Assembly: GCA_017620475.1 (NCBI GenBank)
Contig: JAFZQI010000014.1
Location: 1-64,000, forward strand
Direction of reading: 5' to 3'
Source of the DNA: Clostridiales bacterium
GTDB lineage: Bacteria > Bacillota > Clostridia > Saccharofermentanales > Saccharofermentanaceae
DNA: 64,000 nucleotides
Shown here: in pieces, positions 24,016-41,760 of the stretch
Layout: every line of letters begins with the position of its first letter
Numbering within the stretch: the first letter of the stretch is position 1
Position numbers and translations under genes: made by a program
The notes under the pieces: model-generated
Told to the model about the DNA's origin: nothing
The model's database searches: none
Seen by the model: the letters and a program-made list of their open reading frames with translations, nothing else

Positions 24016-24510
24016 TCATTCCTTGACGCGTCTTCCGATCACATCGCTGTAGTCCTTATTCTCCACGATCATGCGGTACACCCGGCTGGTGCCGCCGTAG
24101 ATGCTCTTCATATCCTTCCAGTACGTAAAACCGTACTTCTCGTAAAGCCCTTCTTCCTCTGTAGACACATAAAGGAACGGATGTCCCTCCTTCTTGGCCA
24201 GTCCGTAAGCATACTCCACAAGTTTCCCCATACGTCTTGCCCCGCGGAACTTCGGGAAAGTATACACAAATCCCACCCATGGAGTAAGAGACGGATCATC
24301 GATCTCATCCTTAGGAGCATACGTACAGAAAGCCATCAGTTCCTCTCCTTCTGTCAGAAGAAGCAGTTTCGCAGGATCTCCTACGTGCTCGAAAAAACGG
24401 TTCTCCGTCAGGAGCTCGCAGAGAAACGCCGCCGCACGCCAGTCGCTTTTCCTGATTTCATCTCGCCAGTATTCCTGATTATTCAGTTCGAAATAATCGT
24501 GTACTTCCAT
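24016..24510 (-). CDS. GNAT acetyltransferase
   Basis: About 164 residues with GNAT core features: FVYTFPKFRGARRMGKLVEY (acetyl-CoA binding) and ending YEKYGFTYWKD. The ATG at 24510 has AAAGGA 8 nt upstream and is preferred over one 10 codons earlier without a site. The stop is 5 nt before the following P-loop gene, so the two are probably translated from one message. Substrate unknown. Confidence 0.85.
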   Translation of the reverse strand: MEVHDYFELNNQEYWRDEIRKSDWRAAAFLCELLTENRFFEHVGDPAKLLLLTEGEELMAFCTYAPKDEIDDPSLTPWVGFVYTFPKFRGARRMGKLVEYAYGLAKKEGHPFLYVSTEEEGLYEKYGFTYWKDMKSIYGGTSRVYRMIVENKDYSDVIGRRVKE

Positions 24511-24546
24511 CCATTTTTTCCTTTCCGATTGCGCATCCATTTTGAT

Positions 24547-24618
24547 CTAGCATCGCTTCAGGGTACTTCCGTCCACATCGATCCAGTAACGCTTCAAGAT
24601 GCATCCGTCCACATCGAC
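24547..24618 (-). repeat. 36-bp tandem duplication at the 3' end of a GNAT gene
   Basis: Two adjacent 36-bp units (24583-24618 and 24547-24582) encode DVDGCILKRY-W and DVDGSTLKRC-stop. The tryptophan codon TGG in the first unit corresponds to the TAG stop of the second, as expected if the end of the gene was duplicated and the old stop mutated. Confidence 0.7.
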
Positions 24619-25128
24619 CGTCTTTTCGAATACTCCCCCGTTACTGAGGATCGTCTTTTCGCTTCTTTCGTTTGTTGCATCGCAGGTCACCAGAAGTTTC
24701 GGTATACCCATCTCCCGGGCCTTTTCGATATTGAGGCGGAGCATCTCTTTGGCATAGCCTCTTCCCCGCTCCGACGGACGCACCGTATACCCGCAGTGCC
24801 CGCCCCATGTTCCGAGGATCGGGTGGTCGATATGGTGGCGAAGATCGATGATACCCACAAGTCGTCCGTCACTTTCACGTATAGCAAAGTAGGTCGTTGA
24901 AGGCACATCGACCCCGGCCTTCTTACACGTCTCCGGATTCTTTCTGAGCATGCAGAGACGGATCCAGTCTCCGGCAGAAAGTCCCTCGTCACCAAGCAAC
25001 ATGCATCCTGCAAAACGGTCGTCATTGTCCGCATCGCATTCCAGCACTTCCTTTCGAAAAGCACTGACTTCCTGCTCGTATTCCAGGCCCGCTTCCACCA
25101 GCCTGATTGCGTCTGTTTTTTCTTCCAT
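24547..25128 (-). CDS. GNAT acetyltransferase with duplicated C-terminal tail
   Basis: A 193-residue GNAT protein: LVGIIDLRHHIDHPILGTWG, then GYTVRPSERGRGYAKEML as the acetyl-CoA site. The last 24 residues are two versions of one 12-residue unit. The gene ends with TAG, showing TAG is a working stop codon in this genome. The ribosome site is weak (AGGA, 11 nt from the ATG). It is tightly packed between other GNAT genes (8 nt after the preceding stop). Substrate unknown. Confidence 0.87.
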   Translation of the reverse strand: MEEKTDAIRLVEAGLEYEQEVSAFRKEVLECDADNDDRFAGCMLLGDEGLSAGDWIRLCMLRKNPETCKKAGVDVPSTTYFAIRESDGRLVGIIDLRHHIDHPILGTWGGHCGYTVRPSERGRGYAKEMLRLNIEKAREMGIPKLLVTCDATNERSEKTILSNGGVFEKTVDVDGCILKRYWIDVDGSTLKRC

Positions 25129-32793: not shown

Positions 32794-33987
32794 TCATCTG
32801 TAAGATGTTGCCGCCCAAAGGCCGTCCTTACGGATCACTTCACGGACACATCCATCCAGAAGGATCTCTTCCTCTTTTTCTTTTCGAAGAATCATTCCGG
32901 GATCCTTACCGTCTGTCCCGGCCGTTTCAGGCGACGGATAGAATTCATGGTGCAGCCTCCATCCGTTTTCCGTTTTGCAAAGCGTCAGCTTCCGCGGAAA
33001 ACTCAATATCCCCCGGAAACCCTCGTTCTCTGTCGGTGTCTTCCTCGCGCCTTCCGAGAAGTCCCCCAGCCACGCAATCAGGATCGTTTCTTTCACATTC
33101 GCAAAAACCGTGCCCGCATAGAAATCCGGCCCGTGATCCACGAGCAGCACTTCTTTTTGCTCATCGCCTGCCCGAAAAGCACTTCCGTCGAATTTTCCTA
33201 CGAAGTATTGCATCACGCGGTGGTGAGGTGCCACGGGAACGGTATTTTCCGATGGATCATCGCACTTTAGAAACTTCGGAAACTCCGATTCCGGCACATC
33301 CATACTGAGCATCAGGACATAAGGCGGATCTTCCCTGTCCAAACACGCGCATCCGGCTTCGTTTTCCACCTCGGCCCGGAACATGCACGGACACTCGATC
33401 ATGCCCTGGAGCGCATAGGAAGGAAGCAAAAACTCTCCGGTCCTTTTCCAGTGGAGCAGGTCGAAGGAGTGGTAAAACTCCACCACATTCTCCCGGGTAA
33501 GGCACAAAGAATACCCGCCGAGGAACGGATTTTTAAACACCTGGGGATCTCTTGCCGGCGTGTGGTCTGCTCCCGGAATGATCGGATTTCCTTCATACTT
33601 ATGGAAGGTCATCCCATCCGTGCTCCAGGCAAGGCACTGCATCTCCCGCATCGTCTTCATGTTGTGAGAGGTATAAAAGAGCAGCAGCGCCGGTTCCTCC
33701 TTCGATCCAAAGCCGGATACATTCTCTTCATCCACGAATGCCGAGCCCGAATAGATCACGCCCTGCTCATCCGGGAAAAGCGCAATCGGAAGTTCCTCCC
33801 AGGAAAGAAGATCCACGGACTTTGCATGTCCCCAGTGCATCGTATTCCACACCAGAGAATCCGGATCGTGCTGGAAGAAAATATGGTATTCGCCCCGGAA
33901 GAATACCGGACCGTTGGGATCGTTCATCCAGCCCTTCTTCGGGGTGAAGTGGTACCTGGGGCGAAGTGTTGTTTTCTGTTCTTCCAT
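32794..33987 (-). CDS. Glycoside hydrolase family 32, beta-fructosidase/sucrose-6-phosphate hydrolase
   Basis: A 397-residue enzyme with all three GH32 catalytic carboxylates: Asp23 in WMNDPNG, Asp147 in the RDP motif and Glu198 in MIECPC. It should hydrolyse beta-fructosides (sucrose, sucrose phosphate or fructans). There is no signal peptide, so it acts in the cytoplasm. The C-terminal beta-sandwich is much shorter than usual, but the final strands (ILLDG, then DGLWAATS) are recognisable, so the gene ends naturally. The ATG at 33987 has GGAG upstream. It starts 16 nt after the GH127 gene, so they form one operon. Confidence 0.92.
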   Translation of the reverse strand: MEEQKTTLRPRYHFTPKKGWMNDPNGPVFFRGEYHIFFQHDPDSLVWNTMHWGHAKSVDLLSWEELPIALFPDEQGVIYSGSAFVDEENVSGFGSKEEPALLLFYTSHNMKTMREMQCLAWSTDGMTFHKYEGNPIIPGADHTPARDPQVFKNPFLGGYSLCLTRENVVEFYHSFDLLHWKRTGEFLLPSYALQGMIECPCMFRAEVENEAGCACLDREDPPYVLMLSMDVPESEFPKFLKCDDPSENTVPVAPHHRVMQYFVGKFDGSAFRAGDEQKEVLLVDHGPDFYAGTVFANVKETILIAWLGDFSEGARKTPTENEGFRGILSFPRKLTLCKTENGWRLHHEFYPSPETAGTDGKDPGMILRKEKEEEILLDGCVREVIRKDGLWAATSYR

Positions 33988-34003
33988 GCTCTCTCCCATG
34001 TCT

Positions 34004-36079
34004 TTACTTCACATTAAGATACACCCGCATTTCCCCCTCGCCACGGTTAGCCCAGAGGCGGTAGGGTATCAGGCGGATCCTGAGTTCTTCCATATTTCTG
34101 CCTTGCCATGTGCGGTAAAGCAGACTGATATATTCATTTCCTTCCTTCGGAGAGCATCTCCATCCGAGAAGATCTAATGCGATGGTTTTTCTTCCGAAGT
34201 CATCGCAGATCACCTCCCCGATGGGAGCCTCACTATCCAGCATCAGTTCTCCAAGGCCCTTACCGTTATCGGCTTCCTCCGCGCAATACACGATGGGGCC
34301 GCGGACAATGGCGGCTCTGCCCAGATCCTCGGTTACTCGGCGGTCCGCGGCAATAAGCTTCGGTTTCATGTCAAACTCCATTCCGATCAACGTTTCCTCG
34401 TCCGGAACCGTGACATAAAGATACCCGTCCTTTACCGTCCCGACGATTTCTTTTCCGTTCGATAAGCACGGTTCCCCACCGTTTTCTTCGCATCGGGAAA
34501 GGCTCTTTCCATCGATGGTGATCGTGTATTTCTCTTCACACCAGGAAGGGATCCGAAGTGCAAGTTTGATTCCTTCGGCCGCTTCTTTTCTTTCACCGGA
34601 AGAAATCGAGATCTTCACCTTTCCGTTTTCGGGAAGGCCGCTCTCGATACGGATACGGCGCCCGTTTTTACTCAGTTCCGCACCCATGTAAAGGTGCACA
34701 AACAGGCTATCGTCATTCTCGGTAAAGGCATAGGATCCGATCGATGCAACCAGTCTTGCCAGATTCGGCGGACAGCACGCGCAGCCGAACCACTTCTGCC
34801 GAACGGGTTTGACATGCATCTTCCGCTCATCCTTATGACAGGCTTCCGGAAGGACCTCTAGAGGATTGACATAGAAGAAGCTCTTGCCGTCGAGTGCGAT
34901 GCCGGAAAGGATCCCGTTATATAGCGCCAGCTCCATCACATCCGCGTATTCTCGTTTGGCCTCGATCTGAAGCATTCTCCGCGCGAAGAACACAAGTCCG
35001 ATGGATGCACAGGTTTCCGCATAGGCCGTGTCATTGGGAAGGTCAAACGGGAACGAAAAGGCTTCGCCCATATGTGTCGCACCAACGCCGCCGGTGATAT
35101 ACATCTTTTCCCGGACAGTGCTTTTCCAAAGGGAACGGCAGGCATCCAGGAGCGCATCCTCCCCGGTCCTTCTGGCCAGATCCGCCATGCCGGAGTATAG
35201 GTACATCGCGCGGACTGCGTGTCCAACCGCTTCGTGCTGCTGCCGAACCGGAATATGTGCCTGATGGTAGTAGTCCACCTTATACTCTTCCCCCTTCGGC
35301 GTCGGGTGTTCGATATCAAAATACAGCGGCGCCTGACCACGCTGATCGATAAAGTATTCCGCCAGTTCCGCGTACTTTTCCCTGCCGGTCACTTCGCTTA
35401 ACCGAAGGAGCGCCATCTCCGCGATCTCATGTCCGGGATACCCGTGGATCTTTCCCTCCTGCGATCCGAATCGCTCCGCCACATAGTCGGCAAACCGCAT
35501 TGCGGCACGAAGAAGTTTATCCTTTCCCGTACCCTCATAATAGGCGATCGCGCCCTCGATCAGATGCCCCAGGCAATAAAGCTCGTGATGGTCGCGCAGG
35601 TTGGTAAAGACCTGATCCATCCCGTTGATGATGTAGTACGTATCCAGATAACCGTTCTGTGCCTGCGCCCGGCAAACGATGTCAATGGCTTCGTCAGCGG
35701 TCTTCTCCAGTTCCGGATCGGGATGGGGCGCAAGCGAATACCCCACCGCTTCGATCCATTTGGCAAAATCACTGTCCTGAAATACGAAGCCGTAGAACTC
35801 GTCGTCTTTCGGTGCACGCGGGTCCTCCGGAAGTACATTGAATCCGCGGTATGAATACTTCGGCGGAACAAACGCCGTGCCCTGTTTTTGTGATTTTTCC
35901 TGGAGCGCTCCCGCCGCGCGGAAATTATGCATACAGTAGCTCGGAGAGGCCTCCGGTACGCGGTCATTAAGGACTTCCCACTAATAGGGGATCACTTCCT
36001 TTCGGATCAGTTCCTGCTTTTTCGCCCAGAAATCATCCGTGATCTTTACTTTCCTGATATCGATCGGTCTGCTCGTCAT
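34004..36079 (-). pseudogene. GH127 beta-L-arabinofuranosidase gene interrupted by one in-frame TAG
   Basis: The real start is the ATG at 36079 (GAGGTG site, 7 nt). Codon 33 is TAG (35981-35983), after which the frame is open for about 659 codons with no other defect. The amber lies in VIPY-*-WEVLNDR; in GH127 enzymes such as HypBA1 this position is Gln (PYQW), so one C-to-T change explains it. Downstream family motifs are intact: metal/catalytic cysteines in YAETCAS and WFGCACCPP. No ribosome site precedes the next Met (35932). Either a very recent null mutation or a gene needing amber readthrough; TAG ends other genes here. Confidence 0.88.
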
Positions 36080-37690: not shown

Positions 37691-39856
37691 TCAGTGTTTC
37701 TCGAGCAAGGCCATGATTCTCTCAAAATCATACTCATGTATGACTTCACGGTCATCCCTTTTTCCCGCCGTTACAGAAGGCGGCTCAACAATGACATCCG
37801 CTTCTTGCCGATCCTCTACGACCTTTTCGGCCAGCATCTCAAAGAGGACCCGAAGGTTGAGGCTATCCGTAATGTGGAACTTTTCGATCAGGAAACGAAG
37901 AGGTGTCTCTCCCGCAACGGCCGTATTCCCTTCACGTGCCATATTCAGCCAGACAAATCTGTTTGTCTCAAGGTCGATCCCGAAAAGGTAACAGAATCTC
38001 GCCGGCGCATTGACCGTAAAAGACGACTCCACCGTCTTCGGCTCGAAGATCTCCCCCGAATCCTCATTATCCCGGATCATGTATCCCGCCCGGCAGACAC
38101 ACTCGGCAAAGGTCAAGTACGAGAATACATTATCGCAGAATATCAGATAGCGGACTTCCGGATGCTCTTTTCTAAACTGCGGTACATCGATATCGAAGAA
38201 TTCCGATCCCCCGTTATATCCGCTGGTCTGATCCCCCGAGTAGGTGATGCCTTCACTTTGTTCCCCGGACATCGTTCTCCAGGAAAACTCCACCTGTATG
38301 CCTTCCGGAGTCAATCCGATCACCGAAAGATCGATATCATCAACCTTCTCCCAGTACGTAAATCCACGGATCTTTTTTGCCTTCGGAATCGCACACCAGG
38401 ATCCGGAAGAAAGAACGCCGAATCCACCTTGGGATGCACTCTCATTAATCGGTACGGCATAGCGCTCCATATCGGGGTGAATATATACTTTTCCAAGCCG
38501 GCCGAAGAGGGTTTCCTTCAGGCACTGTCTGACTGCATCCAGAAGAAGTTCTCTCTGCCGGGGAAGAAGCTTCGATCTGCGTTTCTTCTCCTCTTCCTCC
38601 GTTTCCTCATGTACGCGGAGCTGATTGAATTTCGTAAACTGGAATGTCCTTCCGATCGTAAAAGTCCGCTCATATCCCGCATACATAAGAAGCATCTGCA
38701 TCAAAATGACGGGCTTGTGATCCTTCTCTTCTCTAAGGATCCGAATCAGCTTTGACAGTTCCTCCTCCGATTCACACCGGCTGGCCAGATAATTGAGGTG
38801 ACGGAGAAGTGCGCCGCTTCCCTTGCTCTGCTTCAGGAAATACGCCGCATCCGCCGGTCCGTCCTCGGCAAGGATCTTTTCAAACATCGAGTATACCGAG
38901 TAATTCTTCTTCCCGCGCATCGCATCCAGGAACCCCTGCGCCTTCGTCGTCTTCGCCTGATAGTGGATGTGGTGGAGAAGTCCCGCCCAGGTCTTTTTCT
39001 TCTCGTAGCAGGCCGCCATATCCACACGGTTGCTCTCGAATATCTCATCCATCACCTTCGTGATAAGTTTTCTCGTCTGATTCGGGAAGTTGACCTTACA
39101 GGTCGAAAAACGATCAGCAGATCCGATCTCATTTGCCCGAAGCCGGAAGTTCGCCTCTTCCATGATTTTGATCACATCCGACAGCATCAATGTCTTCGCG
39201 CACGCCGTATCCCGGGTCTCAAGAAGAAGCCGGACCGCAGTCGTCTTCGATGCGATATTCGATGGAAGAGTCCCGTGATCCTGATACCAGAGGGCCGCCA
39301 CTTTCATATTCCGGTCATTCAGGGGACGCGTGGAAGAAAGCATATCCGCGATATACTTCTGAAGCGTCTTTTCCGCCTCATCCTGCGGAAGGATCACAAA
39401 ATCCTTGACCGTTCCTTCTTCTTTAAAGACCGAGCGTTCCAGTTCCTCTTTCTTTTCGAATACGGAATACTGAGGCGCGGAAAAATCGCCCAATCCATAG
39501 GTCACAAAATAGCTCAACACCTGATCATAAAGAAGGTCCTGAAACGACAGTTTTTTCACGCTTTTCGGGAAGCCCTGATAAAACGCCATGGGAACATTTT
39601 CGCCGATCATTTCGGCAGAAAAGGGTATCATCTCCGGCTGTGCCAATTCCCCTCCGGATGTGATCCGGATATTCAGAAGTCTGGCCAGGGATAGAAGCGT
39701 CTCCGCCGCGTATTGATTCGAATGACTGATCCTCTCGGGAATCAGGGAGGAATAAGAAGGATCATCCACCGGCTTTTGCCCCTCTCCCTCTTCATGGACG
39801 AGGATATGCTTGGAAAACAGATACTCCAGATATTCGTTTCGAAGCTTTGCGGCCAT
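37691..39856 (-). CDS. Large protein with C-terminal TerD-like domain
   Basis: A 721-residue cytoplasmic protein. About 490 N-terminal residues are mostly helical with no family I can name. From roughly 494 to 640 the sequence follows the TerD fold: DDIDLSVIGLTPEG, then TYSGDQTSGYNGGSEFFDID, then YLIFCDNVFS, matching the Asp-rich calcium-binding strands of tellurite-resistance/stress proteins. The C-terminal 80 residues are unassigned. The ATG at 39856 is chosen for its AAGGTG site; an upstream TTG adds 21 residues. No other ter gene is nearby. The TerD assignment rests on motif pattern only. Confidence 0.7.
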   Translation of the reverse strand: MAAKLRNEYLEYLFSKHILVHEEGEGQKPVDDPSYSSLIPERISHSNQYAAETLLSLARLLNIRITSGGELAQPEMIPFSAEMIGENVPMAFYQGFPKSVKKLSFQDLLYDQVLSYFVTYGLGDFSAPQYSVFEKKEELERSVFKEEGTVKDFVILPQDEAEKTLQKYIADMLSSTRPLNDRNMKVAALWYQDHGTLPSNIASKTTAVRLLLETRDTACAKTLMLSDVIKIMEEANFRLRANEIGSADRFSTCKVNFPNQTRKLITKVMDEIFESNRVDMAACYEKKKTWAGLLHHIHYQAKTTKAQGFLDAMRGKKNYSVYSMFEKILAEDGPADAAYFLKQSKGSGALLRHLNYLASRCESEEELSKLIRILREEKDHKPVILMQMLLMYAGYERTFTIGRTFQFTKFNQLRVHEETEEEEKKRRSKLLPRQRELLLDAVRQCLKETLFGRLGKVYIHPDMERYAVPINESASQGGFGVLSSGSWCAIPKAKKIRGFTYWEKVDDIDLSVIGLTPEGIQVEFSWRTMSGEQSEGITYSGDQTSGYNGGSEFFDIDVPQFRKEHPEVRYLIFCDNVFSYLTFAECVCRAGYMIRDNEDSGEIFEPKTVESSFTVNAPARFCYLFGIDLETNRFVWLNMAREGNTAVAGETPLRFLIEKFHITDSLNLRVLFEMLAEKVVEDRQEADVIVEPPSVTAGKRDDREVIHEYDFERIMALLEKH

Positions 39857-39880
39857 GTGTGTCACCTTCTTCCAACCGTA

Positions 39881-39953
39881 AAAAGAAAAAAGCCGATGAT
39901 ATTGCCGGATTGCTTTCAAAACGAAAAGAAGTAAACCCGACTAGCTATCGGCT
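39881..39953 (-). terminator. Possible terminator after the transglutaminase-like gene
   Basis: Seven-bp arms AGCCGAT/ATCGGCT (39891-39897 and 39947-39953) with a large loop, followed on the minus strand by TTTTTTCTTTTT. The long loop makes it uncertain; part of it also overlaps the upstream region of the TerD-like gene. Confidence 0.4.
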
Positions 39954-40029: not shown

Positions 40030-41760
40030 CTAGATCCTTGCACCGTCTGCGCCGAAAGCATACTGCTGCCCGTCGATCGTCACCTTTCCCCGGACCATAT
40101 CGCCTTCAGGATTGAAATAGTATTGTTTTCCATCGATGGTCTGCCAGCCTGTCCGGCGGACACCGTCATCTCCGAAATAGTATCTTCTTCCGTAGAGATC
40201 CTGCCAGCCTTTCAGTGCCACGCCATCCGAGCCGATATAATACCACTGCCCGGAGATGCACTTCCAGCCGTAAGACTCATTCTTTGTTGCTTTAGCGGTG
40301 ACCGTAATGCTGTAATGTGCCCGAAACCCGTTTGACGTCACGGTCAGGACCGCCATCCGTGAACGGGAAGTATCAAAACCGGATACCATATCTTCTGTAA
40401 GATCCACTTCTTCCCGGGTATCGTCGCTATAAACCAGAAGGACTTTTCCGCCGGTAACATCCAGGTCATCCTCTCCCACCTGATATTCGATCTTGATCGG
40501 AAGTGTCTTCAAAGAAACGCGGACCAGATTTACTTCGGATGGCGGTGTATACACAGAACTGCTGATAGTCAGAAGCTCTGTGGGGAAAGTATTGGTCGTT
40601 TCCGTTTTATACTTGAATTGCACAGGAGTCGATCCGCACATAACGGTATATCCGCTGCTCACGCTTCCCGATGCACCCGTCATGAAGAGCTTATCCGGAT
40701 ATCCTACGCTATCGGAATCACAGTTCGTCACATCCACAATATAGTTCTTCCCGTCTTCCATCCGCATGATATTCCACATGTGTCCTCCGTTTGTTCCCTG
40801 ACAGATCAGGTTGCCGCTGGAAAGGATACAGGAAATATCGTTACGGAAATCAGAAAGATCGCAGAGGTACTTAAACGCCTTGGAATATCCTTCACATACC
40901 ACATTCGTCGACGGATCCTCATCAAATACCCAGATGATCTGCCAGGGATCGCCGTAGTCAAGAGAAGCGGTATTGTGATTATAGGAGACCAGATCACAGA
41001 TGGCCTCCTTATAGGCCGAAAGCTTCCCGTAATCCGACAGGGATGCATACTGCGATACGATCGATGCCGCCTTGACCGGAATATTCTGTATAGCCTTTCC
41101 GATAGAAGTATCGAACACATAGGATCCGGCATCGTAATCAACGGACACCGGGAAATACACCTCGAAATTTCCCGTGATGTAAAGATAGTACTCTTCCCTG
41201 TCATAATCGTATCTTCCGCCTACACTGTAACCGGGGAATGTACAGGAAGTCGTCTTATCAAACCAGTAAAGCTCGTATGGCAGATCCGCCAGAAGCGCCT
41301 TCACGATCCGATTGCCGTCATAACCGAGGTCCTCTCCAATGGCCGTCATCGCCGCATTCGAAATCGCACCACCCGAAACAACAGGCATCCCCAGATCATC
41401 TTCATACCATCTGACCCCATCGTATCCCAGTTCCGCTACCGAGAAAACAAAATGCGTAGATGCGCGGTTTCCCGCGGCAACTTCACGGATCTGCGAAGAA
41501 AGAAGCGTATACATGGTCGCGTTTATGCCGTCTAATCCGGATCCCACCGTCCAGGCCCGTCTTCTAAGGGGCTGCGGGTACATGATCTTCTCTTCATAAC
41601 CGGCAAGAAGATCATCCGGATCAGCAAGATCATCTTCGACATTCACTTCAACAGGGGGAACCGTTACCGTTTCAAGATCTTCGTTGTCTGCCAGAACGAA
41701 AGACGGAACGGCAGCAAGCACAAGAACTAAACTTACGATCAAACTGAATAATTTCTTCAT
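40030..41760 (-). CDS. Secreted transglutaminase-like protein with Ig-like domain and cell-wall-binding repeats
   Basis: A 576-residue exported protein with a signal peptide cleaved after about residue 24. The middle holds a transglutaminase/protease-like core with a probable triad of Cys289 (VVCEGYSKAF), His327 (GGHMWN) and Asp343 (YIVDVTNCD). Residues about 412-490 look like a bacterial Ig-like domain (a GGKVLLVYSDDTREEVDL strand pattern). The end (about 498-576) has four glucan/choline-binding-type repeats (GQWYYIGSDGVALKGWQ, RRYYFGDDGVRRTGWQ and two more), which would hold it on the wall. The activity is probably proteolytic or crosslinking; the target is unknown. Ends with TAG. Confidence 0.9.
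   Translation of the reverse strand: MKKLFSLIVSLVLVLAAVPSFVLADNEDLETVTVPPVEVNVEDDLADPDDLLAGYEEKIMYPQPLRRRAWTVGSGLDGINATMYTLLSSQIREVAAGNRASTHFVFSVAELGYDGVRWYEDDLGMPVVSGGAISNAAMTAIGEDLGYDGNRIVKALLADLPYELYWFDKTTSCTFPGYSVGGRYDYDREEYYLYITGNFEVYFPVSVDYDAGSYVFDTSIGKAIQNIPVKAASIVSQYASLSDYGKLSAYKEAICDLVSYNHNTASLDYGDPWQIIWVFDEDPSTNVVCEGYSKAFKYLCDLSDFRNDISCILSSGNLICQGTNGGHMWNIMRMEDGKNYIVDVTNCDSDSVGYPDKLFMTGASGSVSSGYTVMCGSTPVQFKYKTETTNTFPTELLTISSSVYTPPSEVNLVRVSLKTLPIKIEYQVGEDDLDVTGGKVLLVYSDDTREEVDLTEDMVSGFDTSRSRMAVLTVTSNGFRAHYSITVTAKATKNESYGWKCISGQWYYIGSDGVALKGWQDLYGRRYYFGDDGVRRTGWQTIDGKQYYFNPEGDMVRGKVTIDGQQYAFGADGARI

Follow-up and report, generated by a model that had tools for sequence, protein, structure and literature searches.

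A GH127 reading frame broken by one TAG codon

The window, a stretch of 64,000 nucleotides from a rumen-type Clostridiales bacterium, carries on its minus strand a frame for a beta-L-arabinofuranosidase of family GH127 that is broken at a single codon, with a GH32-type gene directly downstream. The features discussed here are as follows.

34004 to 36079, minus strand: GH127 beta-L-arabinofuranosidase frame of 691 codons and a TAA terminator, interrupted at codon 33
36077 to 36079, minus strand: probable true ATG start with AGGTG 5' of it, at the same position as in relatives
35981 to 35983, minus strand: in-frame TAG (codon 33), a glutamine codon (CAG or CAA) in relatives
35930 to 35932, minus strand: internal ATG (Met50), the apparent start of the open reading frame downstream of the TAG
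34775 to 34777, minus strand: intact codon of Cys435, which the alignment pairs with the HypBA1 nucleophile Cys417
32794 to 33999, minus strand: GH32-type gene, which starts 4 bases past the GH127 stop

Read from 36079 to 34004, the GH127 frame contains exactly one internal stop, the TAG, in the context VIPY-*-WEVLND, which confirms the position and codon number given in the original prediction. No frameshift or further stop was found elsewhere in the 691 codons, 658 of which lie past the TAG (about 659 had been claimed). The proposal that translation begins at the ATG at 36079, served by a ribosome site, is likely correct as well: AGGTG lies a few bases 5' of this codon, and the start position agrees with that of relatives. 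The base right after the TAG is T, and U following a stop codon favours termination in bacteria. A GH127-family search of the genome returned the TAG-bearing gene as its sole match.

Domain composition and catalytic residues

When the TAG is read through, the frame matches the catalytic, middle, and C-terminal domains of GH127 in Pfam (PF07944, E value 2.6e-116; PF20737, 1.2e-22; PF20736, 1e-10). The read-through protein also aligns with two enzymes of solved structure, the GH127 protein of PDB 4QJY and HypBA1 from Bifidobacterium longum (PDB 3WKW), both of which have the same full-length Pfam domains. The cysteine nucleophile and the zinc site of GH127 enzymes have been described (PMC10728902). 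E339, E355, C357, C435, and C436 of the read-through protein align with E322, E338, C340, C417, and C418 of HypBA1, so that all five residues are kept; the catalytic cysteine and glutamate positions are the same in HypBA1, 4QJY, and the TAG-bearing gene. The three cysteines in this set (C357, C435, and C436) bear out the earlier claim that the gene is otherwise intact, including its catalytic cysteines. The residue replaced by the TAG is the glutamine of PYQW, a motif common to GH127 relatives; a literature search found nothing on an active-site role for this glutamine.

Conservation of the glutamine codon and of the internal methionine

Homologs were drawn from genome collections at genus, family, and order level and beyond (rumen metagenome genomes account for many of the named records), and 13 full-length close homologs were aligned by codon. 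The codon at the TAG site is CAG in 12 of these relatives and CAA in the remaining one. Glutamine also occupies the aligned site in 4QJY and 3WKW, and every more distant homolog with an ungapped alignment at this point has it too (the remote homolog L031 is gapped in this region). Because nearly all relatives have CAG, one C-to-T change suffices to produce the TAG, as had been proposed from the PYQW motif. A second TAG, reported inside the GH127 relative L013, was rejected as a comparable case: it is that gene's own terminator.

The first in-frame start past the TAG is the ATG at 35932, 48 bases or 16 codons downstream of the stop, and initiation or reinitiation there might produce a functional truncated enzyme of 642 residues. 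Three observations make this improbable. The codon is ATG in all 13 codon-aligned relatives, and it is therefore an internal methionine rather than an alternative start used by this clade; the nearest GGAGG lies about 17 bases upstream of it and is not well spaced; and residues 10 to 49 fall within the conserved catalytic-domain match of the read-through frame. Annotations of such genes call for caution, as automatic gene callers may start a GH127 protein of 642 residues at the conserved internal methionine and so present the gene as intact.

Constraint on the interrupted gene

Judged from its alignment with relatives, the GH127 gene is strongly constrained apart from the TAG. Compared with the nearest relative, codons 1 to 49 show 79% identity and the remainder 80%. 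Pairwise dN/dS values against four relatives range from 0.076 to 0.096 and are not above those between intact relatives, with the qualification that synonymous sites are near saturation and the ratios are therefore rough. Private amino acid changes number 15 on the TAG-bearing branch and 11 on the sister branch. Of 277 alignment columns that are invariant in the relatives, four are changed in the gene in addition to the TAG column; intact relatives have zero to eight such changes. Thus, neither the search for stops and frameshifts nor the dN/dS values, private changes, or invariant columns show any sign of long-term pseudogene decay, and the stop, if real, would be recent on the scale of these comparisons.

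Use of TAG in the genome

Terminators and interrupted genes were scanned in a sampled 464 kb, which corresponds to 17% of the genome. TAG terminates 29 of the 345 genes of at least 150 amino acids in this sample (about 8%); one TAG stands, according to Pfam matches, at the normal protein end of an isopropylmalate dehydrogenase-type gene that is followed by Ppx/GppA. Stops with in-frame coding signal on both sides were sought in the same 464 kb with a phased Markov model, the thresholds of which were loosened until the known GH127 site passed, so that the resulting 22 stops should be taken as a survey rather than as the outcome of a calibrated test. Two earlier versions of the scan had failed, the first being swamped by antisense shadows and the second being too strict and missing the GH127 site. 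On inspection, 21 of the 22 stops proved to mark the end of a gene or a junction between genes, which leaves the GH127 TAG alone as an interruption within one protein.

One further TAG, at position 24549, was considered as an interrupted gene and rejected, as Pfam matches place a complete GNAT gene on either side of it. This part of the window (24016 to 25128, minus strand) contains two GNAT acetyltransferase genes in the same frame with the TAG and a few bases between them, an ordinary junction.

These data bear on whether the TAG belongs to the organism at all. The main alternative to a recent nonsense allele, and the one ranking next after it, is a base-call, assembly, or strain-consensus error, in which case the gene would be intact in the organism or in the bulk of its population. 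On the one hand, the source is a draft assembly of 50 contigs, 82% complete, and the remainder of the GH127 gene is under full constraint. On the other hand, a single interruption of this kind in 464 kb indicates that the assembly is not visibly error-rich, and no positive evidence for an error was found. We regard a base error or a mixed-strain consensus as unlikely, but as deserving more weight than any of the other alternatives.

Amber readthrough and suppressor tRNAs

A different explanation is that amber readthrough or suppression, with glutamine inserted at the site, still yields the enzyme. Conservation of the rest of the gene is consistent with this, and so is the presence of tRNA-Gln with TTG and with CTG anticodons, since these tRNAs might misread UAG at a low level; a literature search on basal rates of UAG readthrough yielded no usable figure. 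There is also a resemblance to natural amber recoding, as known from pyrrolysine genes and TAG-reassigned phage codes: the TAG likewise lies in a conserved frame, and glutamine is the residue expected at the site. However, several hallmarks of such systems were not found. None of the 45 tRNA matches in the 82%-complete genome (one of them a contig-end fragment) has a CUA anticodon, although the missing part may encode a suppressor tRNA; a search for PylS gave nothing above the cutoff (best match, 21 bits; cutoff, 178); no second TAG-split gene was detected in the 464 kb; and TAG is an ordinary stop in this genome. The TAG is absent from relatives, and since all aligned ones have a sense codon at the site, there is no conserved recoding.

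The original prediction had left two branches standing, a very recent mutation or sequencing error and amber readthrough. The lack of a detectable CUA tRNA or PylS, together with the ordinary use of TAG as a terminator, favours the first branch, and the search for a suppressor tRNA that had been suggested for the second came out negative among the 45 tRNA matches. Readthrough thus appears highly improbable, somewhat more so than the truncated enzyme.

Absence of release factor 1 from the assembly

One observation initially seemed to support readthrough: release factor 1 is missing from the assembly, where the prfA model gave a release-factor-2-like match only. A full prfA match was obtained in most members of the genus, G009 (the nearest relative) among them; no full match was obtained in G012 and G004, both of which are 92% complete. 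In G009, G002, and G003, the neighbors of prfA are a shared gene of about 205 residues and a Sua5-type gene, and searches of the present assembly, run without a positive control, found neither of them. To our knowledge, Sua5-type genes are nearly universal, which makes an unassembled segment the simplest reading. With the neighbors missing as well, and with prfA present in most of the genus, its absence looks like a gap in the 82%-complete draft, a better reading than recoding. The least probable of all the readings that we considered is a lineage that has lost release factor 1, or whose unassembled sequence encodes a suppressor tRNA, in which glutamine would be inserted at UAG and the amber codon would lower GH127 expression.

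The prfA shortfalls in this assembly and in G012 and G004 are probably assembly gaps.

A recent nonsense allele as the preferred explanation

We consider it probable that, in the sequenced strain, the one GH127 gene detected has been hit very recently by a nonsense mutation that turned CAG at codon 33 into TAG. Ribosomes starting at the ATG at 36079 would then make a 32-residue peptide and stop, with UAG read as a stop as usual, and the gene would be functionally null or nearly so, save for basal near-cognate readthrough. Its intact look might reflect too little time for further decay, or the allele might be a within-species polymorphism. A single recent nonsense allele accounts for everything seen, and both loss of GH127 function and the recency of that loss are probable. 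Recent nonsense pseudogenes and null alleles in bacteria offer a close parallel: there too, one change disables a gene that is under constraint in all other respects, and TAG is otherwise a normal stop, as it is in this genome. The predicted consequence is a loss of beta-L-arabinofuranosidase activity, and the TAG, be it a strain-level null allele or a draft base error, would have little wider import.

Neighboring genes

The GH32-type gene has a GGAG-type site close before its own (second) ATG. It is probably still translated, which makes the original remark on its expressibility plausible, perhaps at a lower level if coupled: the two genes are close enough for translational coupling, so partial polarity is possible. 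The GH127-GH32 gene order is kept in the nearest relative, L032, and is not kept in L043.

Two other minus-strand genes in the window are worth recording. An open reading frame of 742 residues without a Pfam match (37691 to 39919) lies upstream of a HEAT-repeat gene, and positions 40030 to 41760 encode what is probably a surface protein, with repeats of the choline-binding type and a Big_3 domain.
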